From positions 1-64,000 of the forward strand of contig CAMAXY010000005.1 in the NCBI GenBank assembly GCA_945862215.1: a stretch of 64,000 nucleotides of DNA. Reading direction: 5' to 3'. Positions within the stretch are counted from its first letter, which is position 1. Every line of letters begins with the position of its first letter. Made by a program: the position numbers and the translations under genes. Below are positions 46,880 to 48,257 of the stretch, one piece after another. Origin of the DNA: Singulisphaera sp. GP187 (GTDB taxonomy: Bacteria; Planctomycetota; Phycisphaerae; Phycisphaerales; SM1A02). The notes below the pieces were generated by a model that was given only the letters and a program-made list of their open reading frames with translations, did not search any database and was not told the origin of the DNA.

Positions 46880-47057
46880 AAGTTTGTCTCAATTCCAAAA
46901 TAATTTACGCCTCGGGCAAACTATACGACCAAATTTGCGTTTGTCCACAAATCTTTACTTATCAATGCTTTACATCAGAAAATATTGGACGGCAAAAGTT
47001 CTCGGACCTCAAAACAGAGATCGTTGTGTTGCCAAAAACATTAATTTTGTCGAAAAG

Positions 47058-47082
47058 TGTTGCATTGTGGGGCATTGTGGGT
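47058..47082 (+). promoter_or_regulatory. Putative MraZ-box (10-bp-period TGGGN array)
   Basis: TGTTG-CATTG-TGGGG-CATTG-TGGGT, 33 nt upstream of the mraZ ATG. Confidence 0.72.
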
Positions 47083-47115
47083 ATATTAATTGCATCTTCC
47101 AAATGGACCAAACTC

Positions 47116-47586
47116 ATGCTCTTCCTCGGCGAATACGAACACAGTCTCGACTCAAAGCAGCGCCTCGCAATTCCAAGCGAATTGCGAGAGGTCCTGAATC
47201 CTGCAGTGAACGGAGACTCGTTCGTCGCAGTGCCTGGACCCGACGAGGTCCTCACACTGTGGCCGAATCAAACATTCGAGAAACTCGCAATGGGACATGG
47301 CGGATCATTGATCGGAGACGAAGTTCTTCGGCGTTTCGAACAAGAATTCTTCAGCCAAGCTGCACGCTGTCCGCTGGATTCAGCTGGAAGAGTGCGCATT
47401 CCGGATCGACTCTTGACGAGATTCGGGTTGGCCGGAGCAGTTGTCATCTTGGGAGTTCGAGATCACTTGGAATTGATTGCATCAGCGACATGGAAGGCTC
47501 AACAGAAGCAACGGAATTCTTCTGCGAGCGAACTGTGGCGTCAAGCCAATCAACTCATGAATGCACGGTCGAGTGGAACAAGGTGA
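47116..47586 (+). CDS. mraZ: Transcriptional regulator MraZ
   Basis: MLFLGEYEHSLDSKQRLAIPSELRE..CPLDSAGRVRIPDRLLTRFGLAGAVVILGVRDHLELI. Confidence 0.92.
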   Translation: MLFLGEYEHSLDSKQRLAIPSELREVLNPAVNGDSFVAVPGPDEVLTLWPNQTFEKLAMGHGGSLIGDEVLRRFEQEFFSQAARCPLDSAGRVRIPDRLLTRFGLAGAVVILGVRDHLELIASATWKAQQKQRNSSASELWRQANQLMNARSSGTR

Positions 47587-47822
47587 TGGATCGCCTGAAC
47601 CACTTTTCAATCGCTACGACACGGACGTTGTAGCGCACAGACAAATCTCGATTCGCGCATGGATGCGCGAGCCGAGCGAAAAAACGGGTCATGGATGATC
47701 CGCAAGGGTCGTACGGTCTAGCCAGGATGGCACTTCCGTGCGAATAGTCGAGTTGGATTCGTTCAACTCGCTTATTATCGTCGCCCCCCGCGTCACTGGC
47801 CCGACGCGGGGGCTTTTTTTTT
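47582..47822 (+). ncRNA. Candidate CsrB/RsmZ-like CsrA-sequestering RNA (or mraZ 3'UTR-derived sponge)
   Basis: Hairpins with ANGGAN hexaloops: GGTG-ATGGAT-CGCC (47582-47595), CGCTACGAC-ACGGAC-GTTGTAGCG (47612-47635), TCGCGC-ATGGAT-GCGCGA (47653-47670), CGGGTC-ATGGAT-GATCCG (47685-47702); GCC-AGGAT-GGC within CGTACGG/CCGTGCG stem (47710-47742); CGAGTTG-GATTCGTT-CAACTCG (47749-47770); ends in terminator. Confidence 0.75.
47783..47822 (+). terminator. Strong intrinsic terminator of candidate sRNA / mraZ transcript
   Basis: GCCCCCCGCGTC-actggccc-GACGCGGGGGC followed by nine T. Confidence 0.95.
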
Positions 47823-47869
47823 GCTCCGATAACGGTGTTTTTTTTCATTTTGTGAATTGAAGATAGGAA

Positions 47870-47998: not shown

Positions 47999-48023
47999 TT
48001 GATGGGCAGGAGGTCCGCGCACT

Positions 48024-48257
48024 ATGTTGGTCATTACACGACGTGAAGGTGAAGAAGTCGTTATCGGGAACCCAGCGTCCCCGATTGGAATTGTTCGCAT
48101 TGCTTCGATCAAAGGTGATCGTGTTCGCATTGCATTCGAGTTCCCGCGCGAGGTCGCAGTCCACCGCAAAGAAGTTGCAGAGCAAATTCTCGCTGGAGCC
48201 GTTGATCCGACTAAGAATGTCATCGGAAAGATTCGCCCGGCTGAGGGCGGAGCGTAA
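48024..48257 (+). CDS. csrA: Carbon storage regulator CsrA
   Basis: MLVITRREGEEVVIGNPASPIGIVRIASIKGDRVRIAFEFPREVAVHRKEVAEQI; AGGAGG SD at 48009. Confidence 0.97.
   Translation: MLVITRREGEEVVIGNPASPIGIVRIASIKGDRVRIAFEFPREVAVHRKEVAEQILAGAVDPTKNVIGKIRPAEGGA

Follow-up and report, generated by a model that had tools for sequence, protein, structure and literature searches.

A hairpin array with CsrA-type loops behind mraZ in the class Phycisphaerae, a putative CsrA sponge

The locus analysed here raises the question of what a tract of GGA-bearing hairpins does between mraZ and csrA, and to which of the two genes it belongs. The window, i.e., the whole stretch of 64,000 nucleotides that was analysed, comes from the draft genome (93% complete) of a freshwater Phycisphaerales bacterium (Planctomycetota), among whose close relatives the named ones are MAGs from lakes that bear the label Phycisphaerales or Planctomycetia. 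On the + strand, mraZ (47116-47586, 156 amino acids) is followed by a non-coding tract that runs from its stop codon to 47822, by a gap of 201 nt and by csrA (48024-48257, 77 amino acids), a divergent paralogue. The identities given to the flanking genes in the initial annotation are upheld by matches to PF02381 (E 7.2e-22) for mraZ, the proposed host mRNA of the array, and to PF02599 (E 4e-15) for csrA, which encodes the proposed target protein. The rsmH gene of the source genome lies on a different contig, so that mraZ sits outside a dcw cluster.

The tract (47581-47822, + strand) consists of four perfect ANGGAN hexaloop hairpins, a fifth hairpin with an AGGAT pentaloop and a strong terminator. 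Hairpin 1 (47581-47596; stem AGGTG/CGCCT, loop ATGGAT at 47586-47591), which a strict scan recovers in 9 of 10 genus members, overlaps the mraZ stop codon as originally observed, the A of the TGA (47584-47586) being the first base of the loop. Hairpin 2 (47612-47635) has a 9-bp stem and the loop ACGGAC (47621-47626), hairpin 3 (47647-47676) a two-part stem and the loop ATGGAT (47659-47664), and hairpin 4 (47685-47702) a 6-bp stem with a C-G closing pair and again the loop ATGGAT (47691-47696); all four were recovered by a strict scan with their loops at the positions first assigned to them. Hairpin 5 (47710-47742), supported by folding and by the genus alignment, exposes the apical pentaloop AGGAT (47724-47728) on GCC/GGC, a loop of the RsmZ SL3/SL4 type, and pentaloop sites have been described (PMC4005645). 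The sixth hairpin (47749-47770) does have a GGA (47755-47757) at its stem-loop junction, but this triplet is partly to mostly base-paired and is therefore only a weak candidate site. The intrinsic terminator (47785-47822) was also correctly recognised at the outset; it combines a 10-bp GC-rich stem (47785-47812), nearly invariant in the genus, with nine T (47814-47822). Throughout the genus the hairpin of the terminator, with its loop ACTGGCCC, hardly changes despite variable flanks, a conservation that exceeds the need of a terminator alone. A coding function of the tract is ruled out by indels in the alignment and by the absence of a reading frame conserved through it in 10 congeners, which agrees with the first reading that it holds no credible ORF.

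The array is a real observation, far above chance. The strict scan accepts an ANGGAN hexaloop if its stem is perfect, has 4 bp or more and contains no more than one G-U pair, and since it skips imperfect hairpins and 5- and 8-nt loops, the site numbers per locus are lower bounds. It returned four hairpins in the tract compared to 0.016 expected, and none of 5,000 dinucleotide shuffles reached four. Folding compared with shuffles gave z = -4.6 for 47560-47850 and z = -3.9 without the terminator. The genome background, determined on both strands of 1.18 Mb (42% of the source genome), amounts to 0.05 strict hairpins per kb per strand, with no other cluster of at least three strict hairpins in this portion. 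Apart from the tract, a single spot there, L391 around 11585, holds two strict ANGGAN hairpins in a span of 250 nt, possibly as part of a CsrA-controlled mRNA. Raw GGA triplets are only mildly enriched in the tract (6 as opposed to 3.6 expected), so that the signal lies in the placement of GGA in loops, and raw counts were not used as evidence.

In the genus alignment the loops are kept while the stems co-vary. Both sides have changed in 24 of 57 pairs (5 of 9 in hairpin 2, 7 of 11 in hairpin 3 and 3 of 6 in hairpin 4), a number that none of 500 shuffles reached and that collapses in slid controls, and hairpins 1 to 4 have kept the GGA of their loops without any change. Of 287 hairpins behind mraZ, 242 are closed by a C-G pair, and N6 of the loop is mostly U or C, features that match the high-affinity CsrA consensus determined in vitro, for which SELEX gave RUACARGGAUGU (PMC7652899) and the rule of high-affinity binding is an ANGGAX hexaloop set directly on the stem (PMC4005645). 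The sequence features of a Csr/Rsm sponge found at this locus comprise several loop-exposed A(N)GGA(N) motifs, covariation, a 3' terminator, non-coding character and a CsrA with intact RNA-binding residues.

Loops and GGA motifs are strongly conserved in relatives, the comparison on which the initial annotation had let its proposal depend. The 87 loci of the source family (about 40 genera) hold 219 strict hairpins 3' of mraZ in sense and 1 in antisense orientation with 2.65 expected, and 53 further Phycisphaerae loci from 21 families hold 69 and 1 with 1.5 expected, which are hairpin counts and not event counts, as related loci are not independent. Every one of the 87 family loci carries at least one strict hairpin behind mraZ, many of them only one to three, and a terminator-like structure follows the last hairpin in 68. 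Loop motifs with permuted letters gave 0-5 matches in the family in place of 217. Over 80 named loci, strict hairpins number 9.6 per kb from the mraZ stop to 200 nt behind it and 3.4 per kb from there to 400 nt, and their density is near zero elsewhere, with no antisense hairpins near mraZ. Related loci share descent, but the antisense, permuted-loop and positional controls share the same relatedness and are still blank. A spread of the array to the whole phylum is ruled out by the phylum-search sample, in which 35 loci (34 of them outside the class) contain only 3 hairpins; the array therefore appears to be a trait of Phycisphaerae, extending, as far as these loci indicate, across the class and not to other Planctomycetota. 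One relative, genome G012, has two mraZ copies (L089 and L090), each followed by a long-stem ANGGAN hairpin.

The surroundings of the array differ within the class. Many class members carry it in an unusually long mraZ-rsmH gap of about 200-670 nt; in the source family, mraZ has left this setting and csrA is nearby instead. The array persists behind mraZ where csrA is far off or missing from the locus (e.g., L105, L108, L114). As the element stays with mraZ throughout the class, also at loci without csrA nearby, it is to be assigned to mraZ and not to csrA. From the original proposal of a CsrA sponge next to csrA, the putative sponge is supported by the loop conservation, and its assignment is refined, from csrA to mraZ.

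Upstream of mraZ, the promoter region (47057-47087, + strand, kept in 10 of 10 genus members) shows three MraZ-box repeats with a 10-bp period, GTGTT (47057-47061), GTGGG (47067-47071) and GTGGG (47077-47081), followed by a -10-like TATATT (47082-47087). The pattern TGGG-N6-TGGG occurs upstream of mraZ in 63 of 87 family loci and 23 of 54 class loci, compared to 0-4 loci for other spacings. These repeats resemble the direct repeats that MraZ binds in other bacteria, where it represses its own operon (PMC8475190). There is no terminator between the mraZ ORF and the array, and the + strand terminators found are all downstream of hairpins 1-5. In the genus comparison, the first ten codons of mraZ (47116-47145) show a synonymous change of 0.07 as opposed to 0.37-0.61 elsewhere in the gene, which suggests that a conserved element, of RNA or of DNA, lies at the mraZ start.

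On this basis we consider it likely that the mraZ mRNA carries the tract as its 3' UTR and that this UTR acts as a sponge for CsrA (RsmA), and other explanations have to be measured against this reading. That the hairpins arose by chance, GGA being a common triplet, or form a repeat element unrelated to CsrA has a negligible probability, since it is rejected by every control (shuffles, antisense strand, permuted loops and position) and the stems diverge while the loops are kept. Equally negligible is a 5' leader of csrA used for CsrA self-repression, which the position of csrA 201 nt downstream on the same strand would allow at the source locus; a strong terminator lies in between, and csrA, located within 1 kb of mraZ in 82 of 87 family loci, is convergent in 48 of these 82, an orientation that prevails in most genera, and co-directional in 34, so that the array is not a csrA leader, quite apart from the loci that keep it with csrA far away or absent. 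The ribosome-binding site of csrA, AGGAGG (48008-48013), itself includes a GGA, and the csrA leader, which contains more ANGGAN motifs, is a candidate site of CsrA autorepression. A free-standing sRNA gene of the CsrB/RsmZ type, with its own promoter inside or just past mraZ and independent of the mraZ transcript, is rather improbable. Its anatomy would be that of RsmX/Y/Z, a hairpin array with a terminator, and the distance from the stop codon to the first strict hairpin is larger in other genera, where a promoter would fit in. However, hairpin 1 overlaps the stop codon in the source genus, no sigma-70-like + strand promoter was found inside mraZ or after it, although planctomycete promoters may differ, and synonymous variation shows no dip at the mraZ 3' end in the genus comparison. 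An embedded promoter at this end thus finds no support, neither in a promoter-like site nor in synonymous constraint, and the derivation from the mraZ 3' UTR, raised as a possibility from the start, is favoured by the same three observations.

The main rival is a cis-acting site, at which CsrA bound to the mraZ 3' UTR would control the stability of the mraZ mRNA or, where rsmH follows, the downstream division genes, without titration in trans. CsrA binding to 3' UTRs is known (PMC7821165), the array lies between mraZ and rsmH in many class members, and some loci contain only one or two strict hairpins. An ANGGAN motif is also located just ahead of the coding region, ATGGAC at 47103-47108, 8-13 nt upstream of the mraZ start codon. 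It is conserved in 7 of 10 congeners, and CsrA might repress mraZ translation as well. We nevertheless regard this explanation as unlikely. In the source family the array ends in a terminator and most loci have csrA in convergent orientation, and in the source genome rsmH is on another contig, which leaves no downstream gene to control; in addition, multiple consensus high-affinity sites are more than a single cis site needs. Action in cis and in trans is not mutually exclusive, and titration may be accompanied by a control in cis that CsrA exerts on mraZ or, in other families, on rsmH.

According to the sponge reading, the RNA of the array probably soaks up CsrA and thereby ties CsrA to mraZ expression. 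Transcripts started at the mraZ promoter, over which the MraZ boxes lie, would extend into the array and stop at 47822. Two or more CsrA dimers would then bind to the complete mRNA or to a fragment of about 200-240 nt processed from it, so that free CsrA is lowered and titrated away from its mRNA targets. MraZ feedback on the mraZ promoter would set the sponge level; as MraZ is expected, by analogy with the self-repression in other bacteria, to repress its own promoter, the level would follow MraZ status. The cell-division regulator MraZ would in this way be coupled to the Csr network, and in the source family the sponge would presumably act on the divergent CsrA of the neighbouring gene.

This CsrA is the product of the only csrA in the source genome. 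The mraZ-linked csrA differs from the fliW-linked csrA and can be told from it by sequence (MLVITRREGEEVVIGNPASP.. in the mraZ-linked as opposed to MLVLSRQRDETIMIGD.. in the canonical sequence); it has an insertion behind the first strand, and its product retains the RNA-contact residues. Where fliW is present, the canonical csrA adjoins it. This fliW-csrA pair occurs in most of the family and order relatives surveyed, in which the sponge would be an additional antagonist, and family members with fliW have two csrA genes; fliW with a second, canonical csrA alongside was seen in G045, G025, G019, G036, G039, G028, G009 and G013. In contrast to these, the source genome (G000), its congener G042 and G005 contain one csrA and no fliW, and the source genus and G005 appear to have lost both fliW and the canonical csrA; for the source genome, which is a 93% complete draft, the absences of fliW and of a second csrA are likely and not certain. 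Of the two paralogues, the source lineage therefore seems to retain just the one linked to mraZ. FliW as the sole CsrA antagonist is impossible in the source genome if the absence of fliW is real.

Taken to the level of the class, the proposed circuit would be one in which the mraZ transcript serves as the mRNA of a division-gene repressor and as a CsrA sponge, MraZ autoregulation sets Csr activity, and one large family has recruited a dedicated, FliW-independent CsrA paralogue beside the sponge, the whole being an RNA antagonist of independent origin outside Proteobacteria. The analysis is based on sequence throughout, and we give this extended model an even chance of being correct. RNA sponge control of CsrA has so far been described mainly in gammaproteobacteria; Zere et al. 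regard RNA antagonists driven by BarA-UvrY as characteristic of this class, and name Planctomycetes as one of the groups that may rely on FliW in their place (PMC4682653). If the model is true, such an array, strongly conserved over an entire planctomycete class in which many members also have FliW, and seen here in a genome where FliW was not found, would break the division into RNA and FliW systems, and the Csr network would gain an input from MraZ, a division regulator that is poorly understood outside the dcw cluster. With conserved hairpins, one gene and one binding protein, the question has become testable.

The array belongs to no known Rfam family, since neither the window nor 20 relatives gave a match at gathering level, and the rsmX model (RF02144) reached 22.5 bits compared to a gathering score of 56. 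The TwoAYGGAY motif (RF01731) was absent from the matches in the window at E up to 10 and had none at gathering level in the window or 20 relatives. Its architecture is that of hairpins with AYGGAY loops. The array shares such AYGGAY-type loops with it, going by the motif name, in a comparison by name and distribution only; as far as the distribution given by Weinberg 2010 (PMC2864571) extends, the motif was reported from human gut, gammaproteobacteria and Clostridiales. In open-access literature on CsrA in Planctomycetes, on mraZ with csrA and on small RNA of Phycisphaerae, no description of such an element was found. FliW-CsrA antagonism is, like the array, a means to restrain CsrA, with the difference that FliW is a protein encoded beside a different, canonical csrA paralogue and the array is RNA. 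The array appears to be a sponge of the Csr/Rsm kind, judged by its loops and layout, and not a member of any CsrB/RsmZ sequence family. Like CsrB/CsrC and RsmX/RsmY/RsmZ, it strings together hairpins with A(N)GGA(N) loops and closes with an intrinsic terminator, and in site number many family loci are below CsrB (22 GGA) and nearer to RsmX/Y/Z. However, those sRNAs have free-standing genes of their own, which BarA-UvrY/GacS-GacA activates in gammaproteobacteria (PMC4682653), whereas the array is tied to mraZ. The mechanism class is already known; what appears to be new is its clade, its host gene, its link to MraZ and its pairing with a CsrA paralogue. The closest analogue is RsmW of Pseudomonas aeruginosa from the 3' UTR of PA4570 (PMC4950607), from which the array differs by its occurrence in a different phylum without sequence similarity recognised by Rfam, by the host gene mraZ with its MraZ boxes, by its class-wide distribution and by the adjacent csrA in one family.
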